DNA of 37,533 nucleotides, from positions 1-37,533 of the IMG/VR virus record IMGVR_UViG_3300035661_000169; one strand, written 5' to 3'. The position numbers and the translations under genes were made by a program. Under the pieces are notes generated by a model, which saw nothing but the letters and a program-made list of their open reading frames with translations, searched no databases and had not been told where the DNA came from. The stretch comes from a virus. Positions 2,048-17,930 of the stretch are shown here, in pieces (position 1 is the stretch's first letter; every line of letters begins with the position of its first letter).

Positions 2048-2070
2048 AGGTTCCTTCGGGCGCCTTTTTC
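2048..2070 (+). terminator. probable rho-independent terminator before tailspike gene
   Basis: A 7-bp imperfect stem (AGGTTCC / GGCGCCT, one mismatch) closes a TTCG tetraloop and is followed by five T. It lies between the ejection gene and the tailspike gene on the + strand and could reduce read-through into the tailspike. Confidence 0.55.
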
Positions 2071-2084
2071 GTTTTGGACACCCT

Positions 2085-3989: not shown

Positions 3990-4357
3990 TGCCCGATTGG
4001 ATGCTGCTTGCGGCTGCTGCGCTGTCGGCTCTATTGCCGCCCGCGCTGGCACATGCTTTGGGCGGCACCGAATCTGCGTGGGCCTATGTGTGCTACGGGC
4101 TTGAGTCCGCCCTACTGTGGGCGTGCATCGGCCAGACATCCGCCACCGTGACGGCAAGGATAATTGCTGCATGGGGCTTCATGGAGGCGGCAGAACGGGC
4201 TGCGGGCCGCCTCTACTTCCCGATGGATCACCCGGTCAAGCTGGAGCCCGGTCAGGGGCTTGCAGATGCCGCCTTCGGATTCCCGATGAGCTGGGTCAGC
4301 GTGTTCGCTGCGCTGTTCGTGGCCGTCGTCTATCGAGAGGTGAAGAGTGAGTCATGA
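3989..4357 (+). CDS. multi-span membrane protein, holin candidate
   Basis: 122 residues starting MPDWMLLAAAALSALLPPAL. Hydrophobic segments at about residues 4-22, 28-46 and 98-114 give two or three membrane spans; the C-terminus is charged (YREVKSES). GAGG precedes the chosen ATG by 4 bases; another ATG three bases earlier is too close to it. It sits just after the tailspike, where P22-like phages carry lysis functions, so a holin or antiholin role is likely but not shown. Confidence 0.6.
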   Translation: MPDWMLLAAAALSALLPPALAHALGGTESAWAYVCYGLESALLWACIGQTSATVTARIIAAWGFMEAAERAAGRLYFPMDHPVKLEPGQGLADAAFGFPMSWVSVFAALFVAVVYREVKSES

Positions 4358-4553
4358 TTCAACTGTGCCGGATGCCGACCTGGCAACAATGGTGCTCAAA
4401 GCTGTTTCCGCATGGGGCGCTGTCGTGCTGGCGCATCTAGGTATCGGCCATTGGTCCGACCTTGCCGCCATGCTGGCAAGCCTCTACACCTTCATCCTGC
4501 TGTGCGAGTGGGCGGTGAAGCGCTGGCGCGGGTCTGCCAAAGAGAGGGCGTGA
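4347..4553 (+). CDS. small holin-like membrane protein
   Basis: 68 residues from a GTG start with GAGGTGA upstream. One or two hydrophobic stretches (about 12-30 and 37-54, ASLYTFILLCEWAVKRW), then a short basic tail (KRWRGSAKERA). This resembles the small phage membrane proteins usually labelled holin. It overlaps the preceding gene by 11 bases, and its stop overlaps the next ATG (ATGA). Confidence 0.6.
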   Translation: MSHDSTVPDADLATMVLKAVSAWGAVVLAHLGIGHWSDLAAMLASLYTFILLCEWAVKRWRGSAKERA

Positions 4554-4751
4554 TGGCGCTAGACCCCATCTCCGCCGGCATCGAGTTGGCAACCGCTGCC
4601 GTCTCTGCCACCACTTGCCGCCGTGCTTGCGCAGATCCATCGGGATGACATCGCGGTCGTCGGTGATGGGTTCGCGGTCAGGGATGCCGATGGACCGCTC
4701 ATGGTCTGCGCGGTCTTCGGCCCAGCGTGTGGGACGGGTTGGGATTCGCAT
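4437..4751 (-). pseudogene. early-operon gene truncated at its 3' end by the junction with the lysis genes
   Basis: The first about 45 residues (from MRIPTRPTRWAEDRADHERS) look like a real charged phage protein. Beyond roughly position 4605 the frame runs antisense through the lysis genes and gives Arg/Pro/His-rich shadow sequence. This suggests the true 3' half has been lost and the ORF now ends by chance. It lies just downstream of the cassette array on the same strand. The start has no clear ribosome-binding site; a TTG at 4769 is the alternative. Function unknown. Confidence 0.45.
4553..4648 (+). pseudogene. truncated lysis-block gene (starts MALDPISAGIELATAAV)
   Basis: 31-residue remnant. 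The first about 17 residues have the start MALDPISAGIEL..., which I know from small phage proteins encoded between holin and endolysin. After about position 4605 the sequence becomes Cys/Arg-rich and stops quickly. The break falls where the convergent minus-strand gene also loses its natural sequence, so a single deletion probably joined the two. No endolysin or spanin follows. Confidence 0.5.
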
Positions 4752-4775
4752 GGCTGCAAAGTTGCGCAACGATGT

Positions 4776-5036
4776 CTAAAACACGTTGGGCGGCTCGCGG
4801 CGTTCCACCAGTCGGCCGCCCTTCGTGACGCTGTGGATCCACGCCAGCACCTTCACCGGGCACACTGCGTAGTTGTGCGCGCCGTTGGTGCCCACGCTCA
4901 GCAGTTCGCCACGCGGGAAGCCCGGCACGCGCTTGGGGCCGTTCTTTGACACGGTGATGGTGTCGCGCCCATCCAGCACGGCGCAGGCGCAGTCGAACGC
5001 CAGCCCGGCCAGTTGTTCCTTCTGTTCGTCGGTCAT
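4776..5036 (-). CDS. cassette 1 ORF: small conserved-looking phage protein
   Basis: 86 residues, MTDEQKEQLAGLAFDCACAV and following, then PRGELLSVGTNGAHNYAVC and KVLAWIHSVTKGG. AAAGGT lies 6-7 bases before the ATG. It has no signal peptide or membrane span; it looks like a small soluble alpha/beta protein of a type I associate with phage accessory genes. The last residues (EPPNVF) and TAG stop are encoded across the left array junction, so the C-terminus depends on the recipient DNA. Function unknown. Confidence 0.7.
   Translation of the reverse strand: MTDEQKEQLAGLAFDCACAVLDGRDTITVSKNGPKRVPGFPRGELLSVGTNGAHNYAVCPVKVLAWIHSVTKGGRLVERREPPNVF
4785..4791 (+). other. left junction of the cassette array: GTTGGGC core without an attC hairpin
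   Basis: The core GTTGGGC matches the GTTRRRY recombination core, but the sequence on its left has no complementary arm and no partner RYYYAAC site. This is the appearance of an attI-like or secondary (non-attC) target into which the first cassette was inserted, the cut being between G4785 and T4786. The last cassette ORF (4776-5036) ends in this recipient flank. Confidence 0.6.
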
Positions 5037-5068
5037 CACACTACCTTTCGTAGCTTCGTTCACCAGCC

Positions 5069-5128
5069 GCCCAACACGCCGCTCAACCCGGACCCGCTGA
5101 CGCGGGCCGGTTATCGGCAACGTTATGC
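5069..5128 (+). repeat. attC site 1 (60 bp)
   Basis: Left end GCCCAAC (5069-5075), right core GTTATGC (5122-5128). The arms pair as left CCGCTCAACCCGGACCCGC against the complement of the right arm, with an unpaired C after CT, an extra C, and an unpaired A before CCCGC; the loop is TGA. The minus-strand methyltransferase gene ends inside it. Confidence 0.8.
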
Positions 5129-5661
5129 CCCAGCAATTCAAGCTGCTCGGGCGCCTCTCGGTTCTTCCAACGCTGCCACGCATCGCCCACAGCGCCAGAG
5201 CCGGGGAACACGTCGCAGAACTCATCTTCGGGCCGCAGGTTCAGCCCCTCGAAAATCCAGAACGAGAACGCATCGGGCTTCGCTCCGGGGAATCCCTTGC
5301 GCATCGCAATTGGTGCGCTCACATGGTCGCGCCATGTCGGCTGCTCCACCAAGCGCGGGCGGGCCGCTGAAAATCGGAAGATCACCGGCTCCCACGTCCA
5401 GGCCCGCGTCACGTTCTTCTTGAAGGCCGCGAACGGCTTTACCCATGTGGCTGTCCGCACGTCAGCAGGGCACATGGGCAAAATCACGCGCAGGCTTGGC
5501 TCATGCAGGCTCAGTGCCCAGCAGTCGAACTCATCGCACAGGCGCTCCACCAGCCGGCGGTGCGCTTCCGGGTCGTCGTACTCCGCAGCTGCCTCGTGTC
5601 GCGTGCCGTAGTGCTTCACGCCGCAGCCCAGGTAGGGCGGGTCAGCGTAGGCGGCGCGCAC
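5083..5661 (-). CDS. cassette 2 ORF: DNA methyltransferase, beta-class (DPPY then FxGSG order)
   Basis: 192 residues from a GTG start. ADPPYLG at residues 7-13 is the catalytic (D/N)PP(Y/W) motif IV of amino-methyltransferases. Near the C-terminus DVFPGSGAVGDAW matches the AdoMet-binding motif I (xxFxGSG). Motif IV before motif I is the beta-class order, as in N4-cytosine and N6-adenine methyltransferases; inferred role is protection from, or mimicry of, host restriction. Only six residues precede DPPY, so the N-terminus is minimal. It starts directly after the stop of the preceding ORF (TGACTGTG), with no attC between them, so the two share one cassette. The C-terminal about 15 residues are encoded by attC site 1. 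Confidence 0.8.
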   Translation of the reverse strand: MRAAYADPPYLGCGVKHYGTRHEAAAEYDDPEAHRRLVERLCDEFDCWALSLHEPSLRVILPMCPADVRTATWVKPFAAFKKNVTRAWTWEPVIFRFSAARPRLVEQPTWRDHVSAPIAMRKGFPGAKPDAFSFWIFEGLNLRPEDEFCDVFPGSGAVGDAWQRWKNREAPEQLELLGHNVADNRPASAGPG

Positions 5662-5663
5662 AG

Positions 5664-5903
5664 TCAGCGGGCGCCCTCGTTTCCGTTTGCGCTACCAAGC
5701 AATGCCAGCAACTTTTCAATCTCGTTTGCGGCTTCCATGTGCAGTTCGCTGTCGCCTTCTGTCAGGTTCCAGCCGTACTTGCTTTCGCCGCCGTGGCACA
5801 CCAGGGTGCGGCGGCGCAGCCGCTCAACTATCGTCGGCTGGGGCATAACTCCTCGCTCGAAAGGAGCGCCAACAGCAGTCGCGGTTTCTTCGTACATAGT
5901 CAC
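5664..5903 (-). CDS. cassette 2 ORF: small protein whose start lies in the attC loop
   Basis: 79 residues. The chosen GTG start (next Met two codons on; leader reads MTMYEETATAVGAPFERGVM) lies in the loop of attC site 9, with GAAAGGG upstream in the attC arm. Residues about 14-21 (PFERGVM) are encoded by the attC left arm and end. The body (PTIVERLRRRTLVCHGGES...) ends in a helix NEIEKLLALLG. Similar leaders begin the methyltransferase at 9047-9922 and the ORF at 8742-9050. Function unknown. Confidence 0.65.
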   Translation of the reverse strand: MTMYEETATAVGAPFERGVMPQPTIVERLRRRTLVCHGGESKYGWNLTEGDSELHMEAANEIEKLLALLGSANGNEGAR

Positions 5904-5930
5904 GGCGCCCTTTCAGCTCGAACGTTAGAG
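5843..5930 (+). repeat. attC site 2 of array (88 bp, loop carries a start codon)
   Basis: Left end GCATAAC (5843-5849), right core GTTAGAG (5924-5930). Arms: GCTCGAAAGGAGCGCC against the complement GCTGAAAGGGCGCC, leaving an unpaired C and an unpaired A separated by six paired bases. The 30-odd-base loop, read on the minus strand, contains GTG ACT ATG, the start of the 5664-5903 ORF. The stop TAA of the next cassette's ORF lies in the right core. Confidence 0.85.
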
Positions 5931-6161
5931 CGCACGAACATCCTCGCGCCCACGAATCTCGGTTTCCAGCAGGTTCTGCTGCGCGGTCAACGCATCACCC
6001 GGCGTGTGCGGCCAGCAGTAGCGGGAGCGCAGCGCGCGGCAGCATTTGTTCCGGCAGGCCGGCACAGCGCACTTCGGCCACTCGTTCATGGTCTTGCAGC
6101 CAAACAATGCGCAGTCTTCCGGCGTGCGGCAGGCTTGGTCAAGCTGTGTGCAGTTCGTCAT
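5925..6161 (-). CDS. cassette 3 ORF: small Cys-rich protein
   Basis: 78 residues with eight Cys: MTNCTQLDQACRTPEDCALF, then GCKTMNEWPKCAVPACRNKC, C and YCWPH. The spacing of paired Cys with a terminal C-W-P-H suggests metal binding, probably zinc. There is no signal peptide, so a cytoplasmic zinc protein is more likely than a disulfide one. No clear ribosome-binding site precedes the ATG. The TAA stop is within the GTTAGAG core of the attC to its left. Function unknown. Confidence 0.65.
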   Translation of the reverse strand: MTNCTQLDQACRTPEDCALFGCKTMNEWPKCAVPACRNKCCRALRSRYCWPHTPGDALTAQQNLLETEIRGREDVRAL

Positions 6162-6185
6162 GTATCACGCTACGGCGCCAGTGCG

Positions 6186-6284
6186 CTCTAACTAATCGCT
6201 CAACCGCAATACCCCGGCAGGTCTAAATCTGTCTGTTTGCCAGCGCCTTGCTGCCGGGGTATCCGGTTAGCTCCAACGTTGGGC
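6186..6284 (+). repeat. attC site 3 of array (99 bp)
   Basis: Left end CTCTAAC (6186-6192), right core GTTGGGC (6278-6284). Arms: GCTCAACCGCAATACCCCGG against the complement GCTAACCGGATACCCCGG, with an unpaired C and an unpaired A six bases further on; a long stem CCCCGGCAG / CTGCCGGGG closes a 30-base loop. Unlike its three relatives of similar length, the loop has no ATG/GTG start in the common frame. Confidence 0.85.
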
Positions 6285-6285
6285 T

Positions 6286-6573
6286 TCATTGCGCACCGCT
6301 GCCGGCGCGAATCTCCCGCGTCATGCGGCACTCATGGTCGGGCCCGCCCTCACAGGTTCCTTCCTGGCAGCCGCAGGTAGGTCGTACCGCCTCGACCGTG
6401 ATCCGCACGCCGGCCCAGCCAGCGCAGTCGCCACGGCTGACCGGGAAGAAGAAGCCTTGTGGCTTGCCTACAGTCATCTGTGCCAGAGGTGACTTCAGCA
6501 CCGACTCGGCCACCAGTTGCGCGGCGAATGGGTTGATGCCTACTGTGTGCAGGTCTTGCATGATGTTGCTCAT
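6286..6573 (-). CDS. cassette 4 ORF: small Cys-containing protein
   Basis: 95 residues, MSNIMQDLHTVGINPFAAQL and following, with a Cys/Gly-rich C-terminal part (CGCQEGTCEGGPDHEC). A weak GAAAGA precedes the ATG. The TGA stop is two bases from the attC core to its left. No family recognised; the C-x-C...C...C pattern could bind a metal. It lies directly downstream of the cassette carrying the C5 methyltransferase. Confidence 0.6.
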   Translation of the reverse strand: MSNIMQDLHTVGINPFAAQLVAESVLKSPLAQMTVGKPQGFFFPVSRGDCAGWAGVRITVEAVRPTCGCQEGTCEGGPDHECRMTREIRAGSGAQ

Positions 6574-6596
6574 AGGTTCTTTCGCTTCGGGCGTCA

Positions 6597-6651
6597 GCCA
6601 AACTGTTCAATCGAGCCGACCGGGCTCGGCGGCTCATCTCAGGTGTTATGG
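6597..6651 (+). repeat. attC site 4 of array (55 bp)
   Basis: Left end GCCAAAC (6597-6603), right core GTTATGG (6645-6651, one deviation from GTTRRRY). Arms: ATCGAGCCGACCG against the complement ATGAGCCGCCG, leaving exactly an unpaired C and an unpaired A with six paired bases between. The stop codon of the C5 methyltransferase lies inside it. Confidence 0.8.
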
Positions 6652-7925
6652 GGCTTCAGGCTCTCCACCATTTCTATCCGGCGGCCCAGCCATCGCGCGC
6701 AGTTCACCGCCCAGGAGTTCCCGAGCGCATTGTATCTCGGCCCATCGGCCGCAGGCTTGCCGCGCCACATGATTGCGGTGTGGCCGTCCTTGAAGCCTTG
6801 CAGCCTCTCGCACTCCACGGGCATCAGGCGGCGCACTGCCGTGGCCTGCTGCACGCCCATCGTGAAGCCGCATGTGTCCAGCGGGCCGGTCTTGTCGCCG
6901 TACTGGATCACGTCGCTCTGGCGTGCGTCGAAAGCAATGCAAGTCTCGTCGGCGTTGTAGCCTGGGCTGTTCGTCTGGCCGCCGCCGCGCGAGCTGCGCG
7001 CAACCTGGGTCGGCGCAACCTCTGGCACGTAGGCTGGGATCAGCGGCGTCCCACGCCCGGTGCCGTCCTCGCTGGCGTCGAAACCATCGGCGCGCAGCGT
7101 GTGCGCAACCATCGTGTCCACATCTTCCCTGTGCGCCATGTTGTGCTTGGCCCGCAGGGTGTGCACAACGCAGTGATTCGCCGCCGCTTCGTCGGCGCCA
7201 AGGCGCCAGCCCGCGCCAGGCCCAACACCAGCCAGCGCGCCCGCAACGATGTTCACGTCGTCTTCCTGTCGGCGGCCGGCGTATCCGCCTTTGCCACTGC
7301 TTTCAGCGCCGCGAGTAAGTGTGGCGGCAACGCGCGCCCCCGAGACTCGGCGCGGCGCAGAATCCCCGCGCAGGCTTTCGCGCTCAAGAAGTACCGCTGC
7401 GGCACTTCGCCAGTCTCCAAGACATCCGACAACGAACACACGGTTCCGTCGCTGGGGGACGGCGCGGCCGTAGCCGTCCACTCGCACAAACTGAGCGTCC
7501 AGAACGCGGTAGGTGAACCCATACCCGAGGAAGCCCAGGAGCCCGAGGAAGGCACCAAAGTCCCGTCCTCCGCTTGATGACAGGACGCCGGGGACGTTCT
7601 CCCAAACCAGCCAGCGGGGCCGATACCTTGCAGCAATGGCACCAAAGGTGAGCATGAGTTGGCCACGCGGGTCATCCAGTCCAGCGCGGAGCCCGGCGTT
7701 GCTGAAGGACTGGCAGGGTGTTCCTCCGCAGAGAACATCGAGAGTTGCATCAGGCCAATCCTTGAAGTTGTTCATGTCGCGCAAGTTGGGCACGGTGGGG
7801 TGGTGGTGCGCCAACACTGCGCTGGCGAACGGGTCAATCTCGCTGAAGAACGCAGCGCGCCAGCCAAGCGGGTTCCATGCCTCGCTTGCCTCCTCTATCC
7901 CGCTGCACACACTTCCAAATCGCAT
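6639..7925 (-). CDS. cassette 5 ORF: C5-cytosine DNA methyltransferase
   Basis: 428 residues. It shows the canonical C5-methyltransferase motifs in order: motif I FGSVCSGIEEASEAW at the N-terminus (AdoMet binding), motif IV GGTPCQSFSNAG with the catalytic Cys of PCQ, motif VI WENVPG, motif VIII PQRRNRVFVVG, then a variable target-recognition region of about 150 residues, motif IX-like MPVECERLQGF and motif X YNALGNSWAV. Start chosen at the ATG just before motif I. The enzyme appears complete. The likely role in a phage is self-methylation against host restriction. Its last few codons extend past the cassette boundary into the neighbouring attC. Confidence 0.92.
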   Translation of the reverse strand: MRFGSVCSGIEEASEAWNPLGWRAAFFSEIDPFASAVLAHHHPTVPNLRDMNNFKDWPDATLDVLCGGTPCQSFSNAGLRAGLDDPRGQLMLTFGAIAARYRPRWLVWENVPGVLSSSGGRDFGAFLGLLGFLGYGFTYRVLDAQFVRVDGYGRAVPQRRNRVFVVGCLGDWRSAAAVLLERESLRGDSAPRRVSGARVAATLTRGAESSGKGGYAGRRQEDDVNIVAGALAGVGPGAGWRLGADEAAANHCVVHTLRAKHNMAHREDVDTMVAHTLRADGFDASEDGTGRGTPLIPAYVPEVAPTQVARSSRGGGQTNSPGYNADETCIAFDARQSDVIQYGDKTGPLDTCGFTMGVQQATAVRRLMPVECERLQGFKDGHTAIMWRGKPAADGPRYNALGNSWAVNCARWLGRRIEMVESLKPHNT

Positions 7926-7950
7926 AGTCCGTCCCGTTTCTCCACCAGCC

Positions 7951-8008
7951 CCATAACACCGCATTCGAGGCGACGGCCTACGGCCGCGCCTCAATGCGAT
8001 CGTTATGC
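7951..8008 (+). repeat. attC site 5 of array (58 bp, cleanest hairpin)
   Basis: Left end CCATAAC (7951-7957), right core GTTATGC (8002-8008). The arms are GCATT-C-GAGGCG-A-CGGCC against a perfect 16-base complement that lacks only the C (7966) and A (7973). These are the two extrahelical bases that set strand choice in integron attC sites. The apical loop is TAC. Confidence 0.85.
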
Positions 8009-8017
8009 AGCACCAAT

Positions 8018-8233
8018 TCAGTCCTTGATACCGCGCAGCGTTTCGAGGCTGCGGAGCATCTGAACCACATCGCCAGCCATCACCGCCTCATCGGCCGCGC
8101 GCAGATCGCGTTCAATGAACGTCGCGGCAAATGTGCCAGCCGGGCCTATCTCGCGATAGTGGCCCAGCACCTCGCGCACGCGGGCCATTTCCTTCGGCAG
8201 TACATCTGCCAGGGTTTCAGTCTGTTCGCTCAT
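8018..8233 (-). CDS. cassette 6 ORF: small helical phage protein
   Basis: 71 residues, MSEQTETLADVLPKEMARVR, then EVLGHYREIGPAGTFAAT and a helix ending LRSLETLRGIKD. Mostly charged helices, no membrane span. Proteins of this type (LPKEMARVREVLGHYxEIGPAG) are common hypothetical genes in proteobacterial phages. Its ATG overlaps, in another frame, the end of a 30-codon leader ORF that starts in the upstream attC loop, which suggests translational coupling. Function unknown. Confidence 0.7.
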   Translation of the reverse strand: MSEQTETLADVLPKEMARVREVLGHYREIGPAGTFAATFIERDLRAADEAVMAGDVVQMLRSLETLRGIKD

Positions 8234-8309
8234 TCTTCACGCTCCGGCAGCAGTGCTGCATAACTCCTCGCTCAAGGGCGAGCCCCAACGGCTGGTCACT
8301 TTGTCCCAT
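8217..8309 (-). CDS. 30-codon leader peptide starting in attC loop
   Basis: On the minus strand the loop of attC site 6 has AGGAG seven bases before ATG (8309). The ORF reads MGQSDQPLGLALERGVMQHC and ends at TGA 8217, overlapping the start of the 8018-8233 gene by 17 bases. The stretch LERGVM is encoded by the attC arm in the same frame as in three other sites. It may be a translated leader that opens the next start. Confidence 0.45.
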   Translation of the reverse strand: MGQSDQPLGLALERGVMQHCCRSVKNERTD

Positions 8310-8359
8310 TTGCATACTCCTGTGCAGCCGTTGTGGCCGCCTTAGCTCGAACGTTAGGC
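8258..8359 (+). repeat. attC site 6 of array (102 bp, loop carries RBS and start)
   Basis: Left end GCATAAC (8258-8264), right core GTTAGGC (8353-8359). Arms: GCTCAAGGGCGAGCC and CAACGGCTG against the complement GCTAAGGCGGCC and CAACGGCTG, with an unpaired C, extra G and unpaired A. The 30-base loop contains AGGAG and ATG on the minus strand. Confidence 0.85.
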
Positions 8360-8396
8360 GCTTCAAGGCGGGCCAGCAGAAAACCGGCCCGCCGCA

Positions 8397-8639
8397 TCAC
8401 GCAGCCGTCACCGACTCGCCCTGAGCGTTCGCGTGGGCGCGCATCATGGCGTCGATGCGCTCGGCCAGGACATCCGCGTACCCGGCCATGAAAAACGACT
8501 GGCAGCGCAGCCGGGTCGCCTCTGCTTCCTTCAGGCCCGCAAATATCGGCGTCTGGAAAAACGCTTTCAGCTTGTTGTGGCGCTCGGTCAGTTCGCGGTG
8601 CTCGTCGATCACTCGCTGTTCGTGCGGGGCAAAGTCCAT
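8397..8639 (-). CDS. cassette 7 ORF: small helical-hairpin phage protein (crAss001_48-related type)
   Basis: 80 residues. The pattern HEQRVIDEHRELTERHNKL, KAFF, F.GL.EAEATRLRCQ, then Y.DVLAERIDAM matches the widespread short phage family with Q-R-V-x-x-E, E-L..K-L..F and Y..V-L..R-I, usually annotated crAss001_48-related. It is probably two antiparallel helices. AAGGA precedes the ATG by 8-9 bases. It may resemble the helical-hairpin cyclic-nucleotide sponges of the Acb2/Tad1 kind, but I cannot confirm this from sequence alone. Neighbouring cassettes encode methyltransferases, so an anti-defence role would fit. Confidence 0.75.
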   Translation of the reverse strand: MDFAPHEQRVIDEHRELTERHNKLKAFFQTPIFAGLKEAEATRLRCQSFFMAGYADVLAERIDAMMRAHANAQGESVTAA

Positions 8640-8680
8640 GTCTGTAGTCCTTCAACGTTGGCGCATGAATCGGGGCACGC

Positions 8681-8738
8681 GCCTAACCCTTCATTCCAGC
8701 GTACACCCTGCGGGTGCCGCTGAATTCCAACGTTAAGC
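8681..8738 (+). repeat. attC site 7 of array (58 bp)
   Basis: Left end GCCTAAC (8681-8687), right core GTTAAGC (8732-8738). Arms: ATTCCAGCGTACACCC against the complement ATTCAGCGGCACCC, with an unpaired C and an unpaired A six bases apart; the loop is about TGC. It resembles classical resistance-cassette attC sites in length and in its CATTC..GAATT arms. Confidence 0.85.
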
Positions 8739-8741
8739 GCC

Positions 8742-9050
8742 CTAAATACGGGTTGCCAAGTGGTGCAGCACATCCCGGAATCGCAGCATGTCGCCCTCGG
8801 CCAGAATCTCGAATGTGTAGCGCGGTACGCGCCGCACCGTCGCTTCGTTCGGTGGGCATCCGGGGCGGCTGATGTCGCGGCTTACCCAGTCCTTCAGCAG
8901 CCCTTGGCCTAGCCCGCATGTTTCCCAAAGCGCATCAAACGCAGCCGCTTTCTGCTCATCGGTGTACTCAGGCATCCCCGCAGGGCGCCTAACCCCTCGT
9001 TCAACTTGACCCGCCACGGCACCGTGGCTTTCCAGCTTGGTCTCGTTCAT
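8742..9050 (-). CDS. cassette 8 ORF: small protein with start inside attC loop
   Basis: 102 residues. The ATG at 9050 lies in the loop of attC site 8, with AGGAG 6-7 bases upstream; the leader MNETKLESHGAVAGQVERGV is encoded by the attC arm and end. An internal ATG (MPEYTDEQKAAAFDAL) at 8969 is the alternative start of the cassette body. The body is soluble (LWETCGLGQGLLKDWVSRD, then FEILAEGDMLRFRDVLHHL). The ATG overlaps the TGA of the upstream methyltransferase gene (ATGA). Function unknown. Confidence 0.65.
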   Translation of the reverse strand: MNETKLESHGAVAGQVERGVRRPAGMPEYTDEQKAAAFDALWETCGLGQGLLKDWVSRDISRPGCPPNEATVRRVPRYTFEILAEGDMLRFRDVLHHLATRI

Positions 9051-9101
9051 CGTTGCTCCTGTGGTGCCCGCGTGGCGGGCAAGTTAGCTCGAACGTTGGG
9101 C
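8987..9101 (+). repeat. attC site 8 of array (115 bp, loop carries RBS and start)
   Basis: Left end GCCTAAC (8987-8993), right core GTTGGGC (9095-9101). Arms: GTTCAACTTGACCCGCCACG against the complement GCTAACTTGCCCGCCACG, leaving an unpaired C and an unpaired A with six paired bases between; further pairing GCACC / GGTGC. The loop, read on the minus strand, holds AGGAG and the ATG of the 8742-9050 ORF. Confidence 0.88.
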
Positions 9102-9922
9102 GGCAACAAGTCACCCTGTGCCAGCCGTTGCGCGATTGCCTTGCACTGGCTCTCGCGCTTCTCAATCAAGATCGCACGGCGCCCCAGCTTGCGGGCTACC
9201 GCGCCAGTCGTGCCGCTGCCGGCGAAGCAGTCCACCACCAGGCCACCGGGCGGCACACTGTACTGCAGCAGCGGGGCCACGATGTCTTCGGGCTTCTGTG
9301 TTTCGTTCACCGCGTAGCCGTGGCAGCTTCGGGCGTAGATCACGCTGCCCATCAGCTTCGGCCCGCCGTCATCGCTGGCGTAGCTGATCGGGCCAATGTC
9401 GCCCCAGTGCGGCGGCCGGGCCTTGCGGCGCACCGTGCGCGCGGTGGCGTCGTTGGTGAACTGCGGCGCCTTGAACACGTCGCCCCACTCGCCCCGGTAG
9501 AAGTGCAGCGCCAGCTCGTGCAACCTGCGGAACCTGTCGTTCGCGTTGTTGCTGCCGTTGTGCTTCTCCCAAACCACATCCTGCGCCAGCTTCCAGCCTG
9601 CGAACTGGCCGCCCTTGTCCATGAACATCCGCATCGAGCCAAAGCACCACACCTGGGGCGCCACCAGCGCCGCCACGTCGGGCCAGCCATCGGGCCACAC
9701 GTCCCACTGCAGCGAAGTCTCGCCGTAGGGCGGGTCTGTCACCACAGCGTCGGCCTGGGGCAGCATCGGCAGCAGCGCCAGCGCGTCGCCGTGGTACAGC
9801 GTCACCGCCTCGTCTTCGTAGTACGGGCGTGGCAGGCCAGCATGGGCCGGTTGCCGACCAACCCCTCGCTCAAGCGGAGCCACAACGGCCCCAGCTTCGG
9901 TGGCTTCTTCCAACATGGTCAT
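9047..9922 (-). CDS. cassette 9 ORF: N4/N6 DNA methyltransferase (beta-class)
   Basis: 291 residues. YHGDALALLPML is followed by VVTDPPYGE (motif IV, catalytic DPPY) in the N-terminal third; VDCFAGSGTTGAVARKLGRR near the C-terminus is AdoMet-binding motif I followed by the usual helix. This order is the beta class (N4-cytosine or N6-adenine). The region between (about 85-225) is the target-recognition part. The start ATG-ACC-ATG lies in the attC loop; the first 28 residues (MTMLEEATEAGAVVAPLERG...) are attC-encoded and could be dispensable. The C-terminal about 18 residues read through the next attC, and the TGA overlaps the next ATG. Probable role: protection of phage DNA from restriction. 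Confidence 0.9.
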   Translation of the reverse strand: MTMLEEATEAGAVVAPLERGVGRQPAHAGLPRPYYEDEAVTLYHGDALALLPMLPQADAVVTDPPYGETSLQWDVWPDGWPDVAALVAPQVWCFGSMRMFMDKGGQFAGWKLAQDVVWEKHNGSNNANDRFRRLHELALHFYRGEWGDVFKAPQFTNDATARTVRRKARPPHWGDIGPISYASDDGGPKLMGSVIYARSCHGYAVNETQKPEDIVAPLLQYSVPPGGLVVDCFAGSGTTGAVARKLGRRAILIEKRESQCKAIAQRLAQGDLLPPNVRANLPATRAPQEQR

Positions 9923-9955
9923 GCCGTTGTGTCCCGCTTAGCTCGAACGTTAGGC
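9856..9955 (+). repeat. attC site 9 of array (100 bp, loop carries start codon)
   Basis: Left end GACCAAC (9856-9862), right core GTTAGGC (9949-9955). Arms: GCTCAAGCGGAG against the complement GCTAAGCGGG, with an unpaired C and an unpaired A six bases apart, continuing as CACAACGGC / GCCGTTGTG. The loop holds the methyltransferase start on the minus strand; TAA of the next ORF lies in the right core (GCC-TAA-C on the minus strand). Confidence 0.88.
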
Positions 9956-10288
9956 CACAGGGCCAGCTTTGCAGGTAGCCCACGCTTTGTCGAACTCGCG
10001 CATTGCAGCCGCTGGCGTGTCACCGAAGCCCGCGATGCCGTCTTGTAGGTTGTCGCCGTACAGCGCGCACCACTGGTTGCCGTCCATCTTCAGCGCCAGC
10101 CGGTACACTGCGCTGGGCGCCGCGTAGGCTTCAGCCGCCTTGGTGACTTCGTAGCCAATCAGCGTGGCTGCGCACTCGACGTAGTGCGCCAAGTTGGCTT
10201 CGCGCATCACGGCTTCCACGGCTTGACCTATGTCGCCATTGCTCAGGCGCGAGCGCACTGCGTCGTAAATCGGTTGGTATGCTTCCAT
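9950..10288 (-). CDS. cassette 10 ORF: conserved-type phage protein, two parts
   Basis: 112 residues: an N-terminal helical part (MEAYQPIYDAVRSRLSNGDI and on) and a C-terminal beta/alpha part with LKMDGNQWCALYGDNLQDGI then GFGDTPAAAMREFDKAW. The latter motif is common in small hypothetical proteins of proteobacterial phages and resembles HicB-like folds in its beta-strand followed by AM..F...W helix. GGAG lies 6-7 bases before the ATG. The stop TAA is formed by the attC core GTTAGGC on the complementary strand, a compact cassette end. Function unknown. Confidence 0.75.
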   Translation of the reverse strand: MEAYQPIYDAVRSRLSNGDIGQAVEAVMREANLAHYVECAATLIGYEVTKAAEAYAAPSAVYRLALKMDGNQWCALYGDNLQDGIAGFGDTPAAAMREFDKAWATCKAGPVA

Positions 10289-10315
10289 TTTGTTCTCCTA
10301 CTTTGTCAAGTTGTG

Positions 10316-10371
10316 GCCCAATTCGTCATTCGAGCCGACCGAGTACGGCGGCTCAATTCCCAACGTTAGGC
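10316..10371 (+). repeat. attC site 10 of array (56 bp, right end)
   Basis: Left end GCCCAAT (10316-10322; last base deviates from RYYYAAC), right core GTTAGGC (10365-10371). Arms: ATTCGAGCCGACCG against the complement ATTGAGCCGCCG, leaving an unpaired C and an unpaired A with six paired bases between; the right arm reads GGCTCAATTCCCAAC just before the core, close to classical aadA-type attC. It marks the right end of the array, five bases from the stop of the next phage gene. Confidence 0.85.
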
Positions 10372-10375
10372 CCGC

Positions 10376-10624
10376 TCAATTCGAGTACACCGCGCCGCAG
10401 TTGTTGCAGCCGTAGGCGGTGCAGTCGTCCCACAGGTCGTCGGAGCCGCAGCGCTTGCAGCGCCCGGTGTAAGGCCCTGTCGGCTTGTTCTTCGGGTTCA
10501 CCACGCTGGCCAGCTTGAGGCGGAAGGTTACGGCCGGCACGTCGTGCGGTCCGCTCTTTTGGGTGCGGCCGACGAAAGTAGTCAGCTCGCACTCGGTCTC
10601 GGCAAGGAGTTGGAATAGGGGCAT
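10376..10624 (-). CDS. zinc-ribbon protein, early operon
   Basis: 82 residues: an N-terminal beta-rich part (FVGRTQKSGPHDVPAVTFRL) and a C-terminal four-Cys zinc ribbon, CKRCGSDDL...GCNNCGAVYSN (C-x2-C...C-x2-C). GGAGA precedes the ATG by about 6 bases. It is the first phage gene upstream of the cassette array. The role may be nucleic-acid binding, but this is not established. Confidence 0.75.
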   Translation of the reverse strand: MPLFQLLAETECELTTFVGRTQKSGPHDVPAVTFRLKLASVVNPKNKPTGPYTGRCKRCGSDDLWDDCTAYGCNNCGAVYSN

Positions 10625-10648
10625 GGGTTCTCCGTTGGTGGTGAGGGG

Positions 10649-11266
10649 TTAGGCGGCCAGTGCCTGCTCGTGGCGGCCTTCCTTGATCGCTCTGTAGACC
10701 TCGATGCAGGCTTGCACGTCGACCAGCGCGCTGTGCGCTCCCACCAGCTCGCGGCCGGTGAAGAAGCGGTAGGCCTCGCCCAGGTTCGGCATCTTGTGGT
10801 GGAAACGCTTGGCCGCCTTCATCTTCTCGGTGGGCGGCAGCTTCAGGATCGGCGTGGAGAGGATCGCGGTGCACTCGGCTGCGCCGTCCTTCCAGCCGTC
10901 GGCCTGCGAGGCTTCGAAGTGCCGCATGCAGGCGATACGCACGATGCGGGCATCGAACTGCTGGTTGTGGGCCACGCGCAAGCGGCTGCCCACCATGTCG
11001 AGAAGCATCTCCACCGACAGCGACTCGGGCACGCCGACGTCAGCCGCCATCTCGGTCGTGATGCCGTGGATCGCGGCCACCTCGTCGGGGATCGTCCAGC
11101 CCTCGGGGCGGCAGATCACGTCGATGGTCGCCAGCGTCTTCCAGGTGTCGAGGTCCACGAGGCAGGCGCCGAGCTGCACGATGTGCGGCTGGCGCGGGTC
11201 TTCGCTGGGCTCGTTGAAGAGGGGTAGGCCGGTGGTCTCGGTGTCGTAGAAGGCGACGGGATTCAT
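10649..11266 (-). CDS. DnaQ-like 3'-5' exonuclease (DEDDh)
   Basis: 205 residues. AFYDTETTGLP at residues 4-14 is Exo I (D..E), HNQQFDARIVR is Exo II (D), and HSALVDVQA is Exo III with the DEDDh His and Asp. Start at ATG 11266, overlapping the end of the ATPase gene upstream (ATGA). It probably proofreads or trims DNA ends as part of the recombination/replication block with the ATPase and the PD-(D/E)XK nuclease. Confidence 0.88.
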   Translation of the reverse strand: MNPVAFYDTETTGLPLFNEPSEDPRQPHIVQLGACLVDLDTWKTLATIDVICRPEGWTIPDEVAAIHGITTEMAADVGVPESLSVEMLLDMVGSRLRVAHNQQFDARIVRIACMRHFEASQADGWKDGAAECTAILSTPILKLPPTEKMKAAKRFHHKMPNLGEAYRFFTGRELVGAHSALVDVQACIEVYRAIKEGRHEQALAA

Positions 11267-13047
11267 GCAGCCTCCGCCAGTTGGCCTACGACGCCACCCT
11301 CGACCCAGTACGCCTGGGCCAGAGCCGACAGTCCCTGCGGCGGCTGCTTCAGCGTGCCGAAGACGAGCGCGGTGTCGATCTCCTCGTTGTCGGCCAGCAC
11401 GTCCAGCCACGCCAGCAGATCGGCGCGGCCCTGCAGGTCCAGGCAATCAAATCTGTCGATGACCAGCAGCCGCGCGCCGCTGATCTGCGCCACAGCCTCG
11501 GCCAGCATCGCGTCGCAGCGCCACTTCTCCGACTCGCTCAGCAGCCGGTACTCGCGGCCGGCGGCCGTGATCGCCATGTCGGCACTGATCACCACGGTCG
11601 GCCAGCCGGCGTCGGCCGCGCTCTGCGCCAGGCGCTCGTTGATCGGCCCCAGCGCTTCGGCCAGGATCTCGGCCGGGATGCCGTTCGGGCCCAGCGCATC
11701 GCCCAGCGCGTCCCAATCCAGCACGTCGGCGGCATGGCCAGCTGCGGCCTTGGTCTTAGCCTCGGCACCTTCGACCAGCGCCTTGATGCTCTTCTGCGCG
11801 TCGATCTTCGTCACCAGCTCGGAGCGCTTGGTTTTCAGTGTGGCGGCCTGTTCGCGCGCTTCGGCCAGCGCCGCAGCGTCGAAGACCTCTGCCAGCTCGG
11901 CGGTGATGCTGTCGGCTTCGGCCTTGGCGCGCTTGGCCGCGTCCAGATCGCGGCGGTCGTTGGCGACGGCGCTTGCAGCCACTTGGTGTGCGTGCTGCAG
12001 CTCGGGCAGGCGGGCAGCGGCTTCCGGGTTGCTGTCGGTCGTGCCGATCTCCCCGTGCGTGCGCTCGTAGGCGTCCAGCGCGGCGCAGGCATCGCCCCTG
12101 CCTGCAGCATCGTCCGGGATGTAGTGCAGGGCGTCCGCCAGGCTGGAGGCCAGATCGTGCACCAGGCCCACGCGCGGTGCGCCACCGTGCGCGTCCTCGG
12201 CCACTTTCAGCGACGCGGCCACGCCAGCCAGCGTTTGCTCATCGGTCGCCAGTTTCACCTCGATGCGGCCGATGCGCGCCGCTTGTTCCTGCGGCCCCGG
12301 CAGCTTCGCCCGCAACGCGGCGCGCCGCTGTTCCTCCGCCTGCAGCTTGCCGATGCTCTGCTGCCATTGCTCGGCGGCCACGTCCAGGTGCTGTAGCTCG
12401 GTGACCAGCGCCGCGCCGATCTTGGCGTCGAAGGGTGGCACGCTGGCGCGCCAGGTCTTGGCCTTGTCGCTGCCGTAGGCCTCCCCGGTGACGGTCTTCC
12501 ACGCGCCCTTGGCCTGGGTCGCCTTCTCCTTCGCATCCTTCGATGCGGCGTCGAAGCCGGAACGAAGTAGCGGTTCGACGCGCGTGATCTTGGCTCCGTC
12601 CAGGCCCCGGGCCTTCAGCCGCTCGACGATGGCCGGGCCGTCCGTCTTCAGGCTCATCAGGTCGTAGAGGAACGCGCGGCGCTCGGTGTGCGTGATCCGG
12701 GCCAACGCCTGCGCGTCCAGTACGAACGACAGCACCGGGTCGTGCGAGCGCTTGCTGAAGCTGTCGGTGATCTTGCCGCTGCGGTTGATCGTCACGCAGT
12801 ACTCGTCGCCGTCGACGGTCTTCAGCTCGCAGACGGCCAGGTCGGCGCCTTCGCGGATCAGAGCCGGCGCTTCCTTCTTCAGCCCAACGCGGCCCAGGTC
12901 GGCGGTCAGGGCCAGCGCTACGGCGTCTTTGAGACTTGATTTGCCTGCCCCGTTTGCTCCGCAAACAAGACTGATGGGCGTCGAGAGTTCGATGTCGGCC
13001 GCCTCGATGCCCAGGAAGTGGCTGACGTGGATGGAGGTGATCTTCAT
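11263..13047 (-). CDS. SbcC/RecN-like AAA ATPase
   Basis: 594 residues. Walker A GANGAGKSS near residue 31-39 after the typical N-terminal strand pattern (IHVSHFLGIEAADIEL); a central region of about 250 residues rich in Ala, Lys, Glu and Leu, probably coiled coil; and a C-terminal LLVIDRFDCLDLQGRA with Walker B. This is the SMC/RecF/RecN/SbcC layout in a short phage version. Inferred role: DNA end processing or recombination with the neighbouring exonucleases. A Zn-hook CxxC is not visible. Confidence 0.82.
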   Translation of the reverse strand: MKITSIHVSHFLGIEAADIELSTPISLVCGANGAGKSSLKDAVALALTADLGRVGLKKEAPALIREGADLAVCELKTVDGDEYCVTINRSGKITDSFSKRSHDPVLSFVLDAQALARITHTERRAFLYDLMSLKTDGPAIVERLKARGLDGAKITRVEPLLRSGFDAASKDAKEKATQAKGAWKTVTGEAYGSDKAKTWRASVPPFDAKIGAALVTELQHLDVAAEQWQQSIGKLQAEEQRRAALRAKLPGPQEQAARIGRIEVKLATDEQTLAGVAASLKVAEDAHGGAPRVGLVHDLASSLADALHYIPDDAAGRGDACAALDAYERTHGEIGTTDSNPEAAARLPELQHAHQVAASAVANDRRDLDAAKRAKAEADSITAELAEVFDAAALAEAREQAATLKTKRSELVTKIDAQKSIKALVEGAEAKTKAAAGHAADVLDWDALGDALGPNGIPAEILAEALGPINERLAQSAADAGWPTVVISADMAITAAGREYRLLSESEKWRCDAMLAEAVAQISGARLLVIDRFDCLDLQGRADLLAWLDVLADNEEIDTALVFGTLKQPPQGLSALAQAYWVEGGVVGQLAEAA

Positions 13048-13057
13048 GGTTGTGGGC

Positions 13058-14089
13058 TCACTCCACGGAAGGGCCGGCGGCGCGCGGGCGGCGGCTGGTG
13101 GGGGCCGGGGCCTGGGCCGGAGGCGGGTGATTGCCGGCGCCCGGGTCCGGATCCATGTCTCCGAAGCCGGCGTCGTCGTCGGATGCCGGCGGCTTCGGTG
13201 CGGCGCTGGTGGCGGGCGGCTGCGCGGGCGGCTGGGCCGGCGGTTGAGCGGGCGGCGGTGCGCCGATCTCGCCGGTCGACGTGTCGACTCCGCCGATCAG
13301 GCCCAGCGCGGCTGCCGAACGGCGGAAAGCGTCCAGGCCCTGCCCGGCAGCGCCGGCCAGGCCGGTCAGCTCGTCATAGGTTAGGCCTTCCAGCGCCTGG
13401 CGGTCCAGGGCGATTCCGTGCTTCGCGGCATGCGCACCGGCTGCGGCGCGACGCTGCTGGATAGTGGCTTCCTGCGAAGCGTTGCCCGCCTTCAAGCACC
13501 GTTCCTTGAAGTCCCGGATCACCGACTGCGGCAGCACCGACAGCACGCCATTTCGGAAGGCCTTGCTCTCGGCGATCACGTCGTAGTGCGGCCTGTCGTA
13601 GGTCGAGCCGTCGCGCTTGGTCTCGGTCTTCGATTCCTTCTTGCGCACCTCGATGGAGTTCCCGGTCTTGATGTCCTGGATCTCCATCACGCACTCGTAG
13701 AAGTCGGTCTCGTCCGACAGCTCGTGAAGCGTGCGGGTCTCGATCGACAGCGGCGTGAAGGTGCGGAAGATGAACAGCGCGCCGCGCTTCTCTATCGTCG
13801 CCACGATGCGCGACTTTATGCCCTTGTACTGGCTGGCCAGCTCGCGGGCGCCCACCACCGACACTCCGGTGACGCGCTTGCCCTTGATGTCGAAGTCGTA
13901 GACGAAGGCATTGCTCGACTCGCCGTGCAACAGCTCGCTGCGGATCAGCGCGTTGTCGCGCTCCTGCATGACGTGCCAGGCGTCCGGGTCGAACTTGCTG
14001 TAGTGCGGCTGGTTAAGCAGCGGGTTCAGCAGCGCGGCGGCATCGGCGTTCTGCTGGGTGCGGAGTTGGGCGACGGTAGGTGTTGCCAT
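13058..14089 (-). CDS. probable phage recombination/annealing protein
   Basis: 343 residues. The N-terminal 230 residues are an alpha/beta domain (HYSKFDPDAWHVMQERDNAL, RVTGVSVVGARELASQYKGI, RKKESKTETKRDGSTYDRPH, AESKAFRNGVLSVLPQSVIR), with an invariant-looking 'AF.N......P' segment like that of phage single-strand annealing proteins. The C-terminal 100 residues are low-complexity Pro/Ala with an acidic tip. It lies between the SbcC-like ATPase and the PD-(D/E)XK exonuclease, where RecT/Erf-type proteins sit. I could not assign it to a named family. Confidence 0.55.
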   Translation of the reverse strand: MATPTVAQLRTQQNADAAALLNPLLNQPHYSKFDPDAWHVMQERDNALIRSELLHGESSNAFVYDFDIKGKRVTGVSVVGARELASQYKGIKSRIVATIEKRGALFIFRTFTPLSIETRTLHELSDETDFYECVMEIQDIKTGNSIEVRKKESKTETKRDGSTYDRPHYDVIAESKAFRNGVLSVLPQSVIRDFKERCLKAGNASQEATIQQRRAAAGAHAAKHGIALDRQALEGLTYDELTGLAGAAGQGLDAFRRSAAALGLIGGVDTSTGEIGAPPPAQPPAQPPAQPPATSAAPKPPASDDDAGFGDMDPDPGAGNHPPPAQAPAPTSRRPRAAGPSVE

Positions 14090-14119
14090 GTGGTGGTTGT
14101 CCTGGGTGGTTGTGATCGA

Positions 14120-14191
14120 TCAGCCCTTGAAGCGGCACGTCGAGTGCGCAGGCTGCGCGGCGCGCAGTTCAGCGAGTTGGGCGGTTGCCAT
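14120..14191 (-). CDS. possible 23-residue peptide
   Basis: MATAQLAELRAAQPAHSTCR and three more residues, TGA at 14120. Its start resembles the first residues of the next gene (MATPTVAQLRTQQ), so it may be a partial duplicate of that gene's beginning. Weak ribosome-binding site. It fills most of the 116-base gap between the exonuclease and the annealing-protein genes. Confidence 0.3.
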   Translation of the reverse strand: MATAQLAELRAAQPAHSTCRFKG

Positions 14192-14205
14192 TGGTGCGTT
14201 CTCTT

Positions 14206-15057
14206 TCACTCGTGGAAGTTGCAAGTAGCCCAGCGCGCGCAGTAGCGTTCAGCGCACAGCATCGACTGGGGATTCGGGGGGAACAGGCCGGTACGGAACA
14301 TGTCCGCGGCGAACTCGATCAGACCGCGCGATGTCTCGGTGCCCAGCATCACGGCCTTGGCATCAAAGATAGGCGACGCCATCGCCTTGGGCTTGCCGGA
14401 CGTGTGCAGGGCCAGGATCTGGCCGCCGACCGTCTGCACGCCCTCGGTGTGCTCGTAGAGCAGCTGATAGGTGCCGATCTGGGGCTTGCGGCCTTTGAGC
14501 ACGACGGCATCGCGCCCGGTTTTCTTGTCTTTGGCGATGACTCGGCCGCCGCTCTTGATGTCCGGGATCACTACCCCGCCTTCGGCGCGGGCGACGCGGG
14601 CGCGGTCCATCGAGCCGGTGAGGCGCACCACATGGCCGCCGCCGCAGTCGATGTCCAGCGGCTTTAGCTTCTGCTCGACGCTGATGAACTCGAAGCGCGG
14701 CGAGATGTCGAAGCAGTAGTCGCGGTGCAGGCTCAGGCCGATGGACTCCGCCTCCTTCAGCGTCAGGTCGTCCTGGCTGTAGTCGACCTCGCGCTCGGGC
14801 TTGTAGAGGGTGTCGACGAACGCGCCGGCCGCGTCGTTGACGCTGATCTTGTCGCCGCCGGGCAATCGGCCGTTGTCGAACTTGGCGGTGCTGGCGTGGA
14901 TGGCGGTGCCGAGCTGGGCGCGCAGGCCGGAAGGCTTGCGCATGCCGAGAAGGTGCTCGCCTTCCCACTTGTGCCCACAGTCGAACAGCGAGCCCCACGA
15001 GGATGCGCGCACGCTGGTGGTGTGCACGGCGCTGGGCAGCGACTCGGGCGCATTCAC
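14206..15057 (-). CDS. PD-(D/E)XK exonuclease (RecB/Cas4-like)
   Basis: 283 residues from a GTG that overlaps the stop of the upstream gene (GTGA), with AAGGTGATG just before. Key segments: GTAIHAS (the conserved His region), VVIPDIKSGGRVI (the D..x(D/E)xK catalytic strand), and a C-terminal Cys cluster MLCAERYCARWATC that could hold an Fe-S centre as in Cas4/AddB-type nucleases. With the annealing protein and ATPase it forms a two-component recombination module. Confidence 0.82.
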   Translation of the reverse strand: MNAPESLPSAVHTTSVRASSWGSLFDCGHKWEGEHLLGMRKPSGLRAQLGTAIHASTAKFDNGRLPGGDKISVNDAAGAFVDTLYKPEREVDYSQDDLTLKEAESIGLSLHRDYCFDISPRFEFISVEQKLKPLDIDCGGGHVVRLTGSMDRARVARAEGGVVIPDIKSGGRVIAKDKKTGRDAVVLKGRKPQIGTYQLLYEHTEGVQTVGGQILALHTSGKPKAMASPIFDAKAVMLGTETSRGLIEFAADMFRTGLFPPNPQSMLCAERYCARWATCNFHE

Positions 15058-15428
15058 GTCATCACCTTCGCAACAGGCGCCGAAGCCGGCGCGGGTTTGT
15101 CGATGGGCGTCTGCAGGCGCAGCGAGAGCAGTCCGACCACGACCGCAATGAGCGCGAAAACTCCGACGATCCACAGCGCGATCTGGAAGCCTTCGCTGAT
15201 GTCGCTCTTGGCGCTCGGCTGGCGGTCTTCGATGTCTGGCACGCAGTCGCATATGCGCCCCTGCAGGCAATTGCGGTTGCAGTCGGCCGGGCGGAAGTTC
15301 TCTGCCAGCGAGTCTCCGCCGTGGTCGATGCTCATCGGCTGCGTGTTGTGCGCCAGCACTGCGGCGGCGATCACGTTCGGGTCGGCGAGGGGCGCTGTGT
15401 CGGCGCGGCGGAATTGGAAGACGGTCAT
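15054..15428 (-). CDS. small membrane-anchored protein
   Basis: 124 residues. The N-terminal soluble part has a Cys motif (CNRNCLQGRICDC); one membrane span near the C-terminus (ALWIVGVFALIAVVVGLLSL), then a short Pro/Ala tail. It overlaps the exonuclease gene by four bases. Function unknown. Confidence 0.65.
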   Translation of the reverse strand: MTVFQFRRADTAPLADPNVIAAAVLAHNTQPMSIDHGGDSLAENFRPADCNRNCLQGRICDCVPDIEDRQPSAKSDISEGFQIALWIVGVFALIAVVVGLLSLRLQTPIDKPAPASAPVAKVMT

Positions 15429-15430
15429 GA

Positions 15431-15613
15431 TCAGGCTCCCAGGTAGTGCGCCAGAAGCAGGGCCACGCTGACGCCGATGAAGATGGCCAGCAGCACGCCG
15501 GCCAATCGATGCACGTTGCTGACGCGGTGCACCTCGATGGCGCAGGCGCGCTCGCAGGGGAAGGCCTCGGCCAGCGAGCGCGCGAAGCGGCGGGTGGTGG
15601 GCCAGCCGTTCAC
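15431..15613 (-). CDS. small single-span membrane protein
   Basis: 60 residues with one C-terminal span (RLAGVLLAIFIGVSVALLLA) after a charged N-terminal half (MNGWPTTRRFARSLAEAFPC). It overlaps the upstream gene by four bases (ATGA). It probably belongs to the same early operon; function unknown. Confidence 0.6.
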   Translation of the reverse strand: MNGWPTTRRFARSLAEAFPCERACAIEVHRVSNVHRLAGVLLAIFIGVSVALLLAHYLGA

Positions 15614-16146
15614 GCGAACCTCGCTTCAGCCCGCGCCTCGGCCTTCATGTCCTCGGATTCCTGGCGCTGCTCGTCCAGCCAGTCCGCGCCGCGCTGAATC
15701 CAGGCTTCATGCACCGCGTCGGCGAATTGGTCAGCATCGACCCACACGCCGTTGACCAGCGCGCACAGTACGGTGACGCTCTCGTCGTAGTGCGGCTCGT
15801 TCCAGCCATCGCCTTCCTCGGGCTGGTATTCGAACTCCACCAGCACTTCGGCATCGTCCAAGAAGCACGGAACGTGGAAGCAGCCGGATTGCGGCGTCGC
15901 GTTGCGCCCGGCCAGCGCGTCCAGCTCGCCGCACAGCGCGCGGATCGCGCCTTCGTAGTTCGCGGCCAGCGCCGGCTGGCTGGTGTAGCCGCTGACCGTG
16001 GCGTTATCCGTGCACATGGCGCGGATCGTCTCGAAGCGCTGGCTTCGGATAGCGCGGGTCGTGGCCTTGACGGCACGGTCGGCTGCGTCGGCCTGAGCCT
16101 TGCGTTCGGGCGTGTCGGCCAGGAGGGTTTCGAGGCATGCGCTCAT
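15610..16146 (-). CDS. hypothetical acidic protein
   Basis: 178 residues. Helical N-terminus (PERKAQADAADRAVKATTRA), a central beta-rich part with VEFEYQPEEGDGWNEPHYDE and VTVLCALVNGVWVDADQFAD, and a charged helical C-terminus. CCGGAGCAGCCC precedes the ATG (GGAG, 7 bases). No family recognised. Confidence 0.65.
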   Translation of the reverse strand: MSACLETLLADTPERKAQADAADRAVKATTRAIRSQRFETIRAMCTDNATVSGYTSQPALAANYEGAIRALCGELDALAGRNATPQSGCFHVPCFLDDAEVLVEFEYQPEEGDGWNEPHYDESVTVLCALVNGVWVDADQFADAVHEAWIQRGADWLDEQRQESEDMKAEARAEARFA

Positions 16147-16176
16147 GGGCTGCTCCGGGTGCTGTGAGGTTGAGGG

Positions 16177-17858: not shown

Positions 17859-17930
17859 AGCAGCCGAGGAAGACGGCAATCCGCCGGGCTCATAACCCGG
17901 AGACATGCGGTTCGACTCCGCGGGCTGCAA
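17859..17930 (+). tRNA. tRNA-Met(CAT)-like gene with initiator features
   Basis: 72 bases fold as a cloverleaf. The anticodon arm CCGGG-CTCATAA-CCCGG (anticodon CAT 17891-17893) has the three G-C pairs typical of initiator tRNA. T arm TGCGG-TTCGACT-CCGCG; acceptor AGCAGCC / GGCTGCA with six pairs and an unpaired 1:72 position, another initiator hallmark; D arm GGA / TCC with GG in the loop. CCA is not encoded (CCG follows). It lies in the otherwise empty 325-base stretch between the cro-like and cII-like genes. It might also be an atypical elongator CAT tRNA (Met or Ile2); a tRNA covariance search would decide. Confidence 0.7.

Follow-up and report, generated by a model that had tools for sequence, protein, structure and literature searches.

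Integrons are regarded as gene-capture platforms of bacteria (and archaea), and clusters of attC sites in phages have been read as accidental captures. The closest described systems are the clusters of attC sites lacking integron integrases (CALINs) that Qi et al. (2023; PMC9892861) found 17 times among 10,705 phages, virulent and temperate, with methyltransferase cassettes; five of the six phage attC sites tested there recombined with attI1 through IntI1. The window analysed here, by which we mean the complete IMG/VR virus record IMGVR_UViG_3300035661_000169 of 37,533 bases, is like these phages, which often have DNA methyltransferase cassettes in attC clusters without intI: ten plus-strand attC sites bound ten cassettes, from 4786 to 10365. 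With ten attC sites and no nearby intI, the array is a CALIN in the usual sense (at least two attC sites, no nearby intI), though one with an attI-like site. An earlier note on this DNA had described a ten-cassette array without an integrase at this place, and no IntI is indeed encoded in the record; its suggestion that a phage with such a module might be something undescribed has to be dropped, as integrase-less phage attC clusters are already in Qi et al. Judged from its sequence, the array is nevertheless more than a captured bacterial array, given its attI-like site, its inverted genes and a large viral family partly equipped with integrase, and it quite probably forms the cassette portion of a phage integron with reversed polarity. 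What the sequences themselves establish are real attC sites, inverted polarity, an attI-like edge, cassette sharing, and exact gain and loss of cassettes in relatives.

The attC sites of the array are upheld by a covariance model, by a scan for extrahelical bases and by the complementarity of the cassette ends. The covariance model was trained on 22 non-phage attC sites, taken from bacterial chromosomes and from class 1 integrons on plasmids, and the window was searched without filters. Five sites were matched, all on the plus strand and all within the array: attC 7 (8681..8738; 54.9 bits, E 4.5e-13), attC 5 (7951..8008; 49.6 bits), attC 10 at the distal array end (10316..10371; 46.2 bits, E 1.2e-10), attC 4 (6597..6651; 30.7 bits, E 2.7e-6) and attC 1 (5069..5128; 28.0 bits, E 1.6e-5). 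The next best match anywhere in the 37.5 kb had an E-value of 0.72, so that the search proposed in the note gave significant hits for half of the sites and none elsewhere in the window. The model is strongly strand-specific, with site 8681-8738 scoring 8.0 bits on the minus strand, and the other five sites went unscored because they have long loops and the model is a short-loop one. The extrahelical-base scan recovered all ten, including attC 2 (5843..5930; score 13.0), attC 3 (6186..6284; 10.0), attC 6 (8258..8359), attC 8 (8987..9101; 14.5) and attC 9 (9856..9955; 9.5), all on the plus strand. Eight matches in the array region scored at least 9, whereas 200 dinucleotide shuffles gave 0.135 on average and never more than 2. 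Folding of the single-stranded minus strand, also proposed in the note, gave z-scores from -1.2 to -6.8 (-2.7 for attC 1, -4.5 for attC 3, -6.75 for attC 5, -3.3 for attC 6, -4.1 for attC 8 and -2.6 for attC 9). The note had placed an unpaired C and an unpaired A six bases apart, seven once, in all ten sites; the pattern is exact in attC 2, 4, 5, 8 and 10, and the remaining five show a mismatch or one extra base, which makes "seven once" slightly optimistic. Moreover, when the opening 12 bases of every cassette are compared with its own R'', 106 of 120 positions are complementary, a value reached in none of 100,000 permutations; the fit is better than with the R'' of the neighbouring cassette, as it should be for units that circularise.

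The polarity of an attC site is set by its extrahelical bases, and as a control the scan places attC on the gene strand in known class 1 integrons. In the window, attC occupies the plus strand and the cassette genes, without exception, the minus strand, which departs from the bacterial norm of codirectional genes with attC at their 3' end. To compare the two, viral and bacterial contigs sharing the same 18-base attC pattern were passed through one gene-calling and polarity pipeline, with a codon model trained on the window genes. The 39 bacterial loci gave 114 codirectional and 9 opposite genes, and the 42 viral loci, which correspond to somewhat fewer distinct contigs because some overlap, gave 0 and 184. 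A second attC pattern mostly found no arrays; wherever the polarity of a contig could be called, it was again opposite. The strand assigned by the covariance model is consistent with this result. Inverted arrays recur in dozens of viral contigs, some of which encode an integron integrase, and in the complete GenBank phage MW202573, where four attC sites on the minus strand accompany plus-strand genes at 2069-3738. The main text of PMC9892861, which lists this phage as a CALIN, leaves the inversion unremarked. The phage TJE1 from the same paper has canonical polarity in the same test, and the 108-kb AT-rich viral contig IMGVR_UViG_3300031368_000001, with three attC sites, appears canonical by eye; the inversion is therefore a property of the array family of the window and not of all viruses. 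A further feature of the viral arrays is that 28 of 59 genes adjoining a long attC begin within its loop, and their L''/R'' half is translated as an N-terminal peptide, for example LSEGLG or VERGVRP. Among the window genes of this kind, the methyltransferase of cassette 9 has an N-terminus encoded from within attC, MTMLEEATEAGAVVAPLERGVGRQ. Bacterial cassettes examined in this way differed, with 102 of 103 genes ending before attC.

At its proximal edge, the array begins in an attI-like site on the plus strand (CATGGCTGCAAAGTTGCGCAACGATGTCTAAAACACG|TTGGGC, 4749..4791), recognised by similarity and position. In a related phage (L078), this site is conserved in a flank that is 78% identical overall, and the cassettes diverge about 20 bp into cassette 1, so that a related phage with other cassettes at the same place, of the kind the note proposed to look for, does exist. 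A pattern built from the attI core only, with no attC information, found the core followed by an inverted array in L078, L104, L360, L371, L372, L375, L376 and L377, and it also gave chance matches without attC. Edges resembling attI were seen in many arrays besides that of the window. The core AAAACACG|TTAGGC precedes intI by about 206 bp in the bacterial locus L301 and by about 1 kb in L306. The core TGTCTAAAACACG|TTAGGC recurs within bacterial cassette arrays (L201, L212, L223, L233, L235 and L276, mostly Rubrivivax); these are possibly attI-type cassettes, and delta-attI cassettes have been described in mobile integrons (PMC12901181, 2026). One viral record, IMGVR_UViG_3300022179_000796 (L376 and L377), has two attI-like sites with at least one attC after each, perhaps two arrays. 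Adjoining the attI-like site of the window is a small minus-strand gene (4606-4769), a homologue of a 96-residue gene of L078 (MKFPKITLRSATDRANHERDMGIPDREPI...); L092 and L093 have relatives of it in this position. The start codon of the window gene stands beside the attI element, where intI begins in integrase-bearing phages. The window copy is apparently truncated and has no PHROG match, and the L078 copy has no Pfam match.

Exact gain and loss of cassettes can be read from natural pairs of relatives. L321 and L163 differ from L320 by a single cassette of 523 bp at attI, whose boundaries fall precisely at G|TT on both sides, between flanks that are 100% identical over 1095 and 580 bp. Two further pairs, L124/L159 and L160/L083, show indels of 313 and 363 bp with overlaps of 65-68 bp, the size of an attC site. 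Cassette 1 of the window recurs in L132 at 90% identity, and the homology begins exactly at G|TT and ends in attC. The cassette gained in L321 is also present in L236, a phage-like contig of an Aquincola metagenome-assembled genome (MAG). Few phage cassette proteins match bacterial arrays, phage-like contigs aside; strong matches were found in L236 and L272, yet both resemble phage contigs in MAGs.

Of 38 related viral records, two encode an integron integrase; searching with one of the two retrieved related integrases from 17 viral contigs, including related phage arrays such as L320-L322, L324-L326, L328, L331 and L334. Five phage IntI tested against TIGR02249 scored 412-428 bits (cut-off 265). 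In a tree, 15 rows form one phage clade with support of 97/97, apart from nine bacterial IntI and IntI1, and one phage IntI shares 48-55% identity with bacterial IntI. Contigs that have attC usually run from early genes through inverted cassettes to attI and then intI, with everything read in one direction, and in the integrase-bearing phages a conserved attI (GGTGTTACGCCGCGG....CTGCGGTCGAATTGACG|TTAGGC) abuts the start codon of intI. In L324, intI is followed by a gene for a phage-type tyrosine integrase; several other contigs have a gene of about that length in the corresponding position. A protein search of 300 Burkholderiales genomes returned no close relative of the phage IntI at E<=1e-118, a result that shows little because it had no positive control. 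An IntI-like protein with 45% identity in the virus Rctr41k was also considered, and no convincing inverted array was found there.

We propose that an integron integrase, acting on the attI-like site at 4749-4791, inserts and excises attC-bounded units at G|TT. New cassettes would enter at attI, the far end of a leftward early operon, and would be carried backwards, with attC at the 5' end of the gene and sometimes holding its start codon. They would be expressed as the tail of the operon by read-through from a phage promoter, not from a promoter in attI; because recombination geometry fixes attC polarity, such expression would require genes opposite to attC. Recombination would then use the operon's non-template strand, which may become exposed during transcription. 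Some related phages have an integrase gene of their own, at the end of the early operon. The window phage most likely uses an integrase provided in trans by its host, since its attI core matches bacterial Burkholderiales attI and not the attI of integrase-bearing phages; the attC type, attI core and GC content suggest a host among the Burkholderiales. The benefit may lie in quickly exchangeable early accessory genes, among them DNA methyltransferases able to blunt host restriction. The wider claim is that phages own a class of integrons, with a distinct IntI clade and attI and a separate cassette pool of reversed polarity (attC at the 5' end, often with the start codon, and recombining through the displaced non-template strand of the early operon), which integrase-less phages, that of the window among them, exploit with host IntI. 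We hold this to be fairly likely, with less assurance than the reading of the array itself.

Several points weigh against these proposals. Similarity alone led to the assignment of the attI-like site, and activity in the window phage is a prediction, its record encoding no IntI; whole-unit movement at G|TT is seen in relatives and in the shared cassette 1, not within the window phage itself. The own-end complementarity of cassette 4 is weak (7/12). Furthermore, the contigs used for comparison are mostly metagenomic fragments, many of them linear and some mutually overlapping, and of 48 contigs, only about half gave a terminase match with the two models used.

The alternative that survives best, although we consider it improbable, is that the phage acquired part of a bacterial chromosomal integron by illegitimate recombination and that the array is now an immobile, passive relic. 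The missing integrase would fit; Rubrivivax and other Burkholderiales have integrons with this attC type, and illegitimate or off-target recombination is what PMC9892861 proposes for phage CALINs. A captured block would keep its bacterial polarity, yet all the viral loci tested that have this attC type show the inversion. Nor would a relic account for different cassettes at a shared attI, sharing at exact boundaries and exact natural indels, and the scarcity of matches between phage cassette proteins and bacterial arrays also speaks against it.

It is still less likely, and we give it very little credit, that the hairpins are RNA elements of the phage operon, serving processing, attenuation or translation control, that resemble attC by chance. 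The folded strand does equal the mRNA, and the hairpins stand at the 5' ends of genes. Start codons also fall in the loops, in the 28 of 59 genes given above. RNA elements would predict neither the extrahelical bases nor the match to a model trained on bacterial sites, nor the complementarity of unit ends, the whole-unit G|TT indels or the intI beside attI in relatives. Besides recombination, the hairpins may have an additional role in RNA. An assembly chimera of a phage and a bacterial integron, conceivable for a metagenomic contig, is hardly credible, as GC is nearly equal in array (64.0%) and genome (63.0%), the left junction is also present in the independent contig L078, and the architecture recurs in dozens of contigs and in the complete phage MW202573.

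The genes of the ten window cassettes all lie on the minus strand. Cassette 1 (4786..5122), whose relative in L132 is an internal cassette, carries a gene at 4776-5036 that takes its stop codon from the attI-like site. Two genes share cassette 2 (5123..5924; own-end complementarity 12/12), one at 5083-5661 with a DPPY motif and no Pfam match and one at 5664-5903 that starts in attC 2. Genes with no assigned function occupy cassette 3 (5925..6278; gene 5925-6161; 12/12), cassette 4 (6279..6645; gene 6286-6573), delimited by its location between two attC sites, cassette 6 (8003..8353; gene 8018-8233; 12/12) and cassette 10 (9950..10365; gene 9950-10288, an open reading frame; 9/12). Cassette 5 (6646..8002) encodes a C5-cytosine DNA methyltransferase from 6639 to about 7926 (PF00145, E 1.3e-38; TIGR00675 above cut-off). 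The gene of cassette 7 (8354..8732; gene 8397-8639) specifies a crAss001_48-related phage protein (PF21825, E 2.2e-17), and that of cassette 8 (8733..9095; gene 8742-9050; 11/12) has its start codon in attC 8. Cassette 9 (9096..9949) carries an N6/N4 DNA methyltransferase at 9047-9922 (PF01555, E 6.5e-28), with its start codon in attC 9. Relatives of this enzyme, 70-89% identical, occur in other viral contigs, two of them within inverted arrays; no credible attC was found at six loci with such relatives (L051-L054, L057 and L058). DNA methyltransferases in two of the ten window cassettes, and four in L056, suggest that protection from restriction may be a main role of the cargo.

The array lies within a phage genome, as the note had stated, and is placed where the early genes end; genes for terminase, portal, major head protein and head-closure protein were confirmed. 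The two ends of the window have 120 bp in common (119/120 identical), so the genome is closed, as the note had it, or terminally redundant. The minus-strand early region runs leftward from about 17.2 kb through recombination genes into the array at 4.8-10.4 kb. Its genes at 10376..17163 (exonuclease, SbcC-like and recombination; phrog_192, phrog_77 and phrog_69), assigned also from gene order and strand, probably form one operon with the array, and a plus-strand holin-like gene (4347..4553; phrog_920, E 6.5e-4) is convergent with it. The first early gene (16177-17163) encodes a product rich in degenerate repeats (GAATASGDC/GNY...), and a tRNA-Met gene lies in the control region at 17859-17932. 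Immediately upstream of the array, the gene at 10376-10624 has an N-terminus in common with a 285-residue gene of the early-gene relative G004; the remainder differs and is zinc-finger-like. Open reading frames at the array position of G003 and G004 read as HNH and phage-integrase-like genes. No phage tyrosine integrase gene was noticed in the window; these two relatives and the IntI-bearing phage L324 have one. No Rfam family matched the array, the sole match in the window being a tRNA, and megablast of 24.9 kb of the window against 50,697 GenBank phages gave no match. The array was not seen in the first relatives found by terminase and by a recombination gene.

The systematic inversion, the separate IntI clade and attI of phages, and the exact gain or loss of cassettes between phage segments that are otherwise identical indicate that phages run their own integrons, through which they would exchange early genes such as those for DNA methyltransferases. 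The comparison bears directly on the assumption that cassette genes follow attC polarity; it defines a cassette pool that annotation by bacterial polarity may misread, and it points to a possible route by which phages rapidly swap counter-defence genes. Neither reversed polarity nor a phage IntI clade, nor start codons located in attC, turned up in earlier work in a literature search that covered subscription papers and preprints thinly, so priority is not proven.

Overall, the phage arrays can be set beside four described systems. In PMC9892861, orientation is treated as typical or as mosaicism, and neither an inverted-polarity family nor such a phage IntI clade is reported. Complete integrons of temperate phages (Vibrio, Shewanella, P1; PMC9892861) likewise combine phage-borne intI, attI and attC, and are described there as fragments of host or class 1 integrons; the best matches to the new phage IntI in the GenBank phage collection are less than 60% identical. 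Spirochaete integrons (mentioned in PMC9668308) also have an unusual orientation, but there it is intI that is reversed, whereas in the phage arrays the cassette genes are reversed relative to attC and the orientation of intI towards attI and attC is the usual one. Class 1 integrons and the sedentary chromosomal integrons of Burkholderiales such as Rubrivivax and Ideonella share with the phage arrays the attC type, the attI core AAAACACG|TTAGGC and a homologous IntI; they carry attC at the 3' end of the gene, whereas the phage cassettes carry it at the 5' end and the phage IntI form a separate clade.

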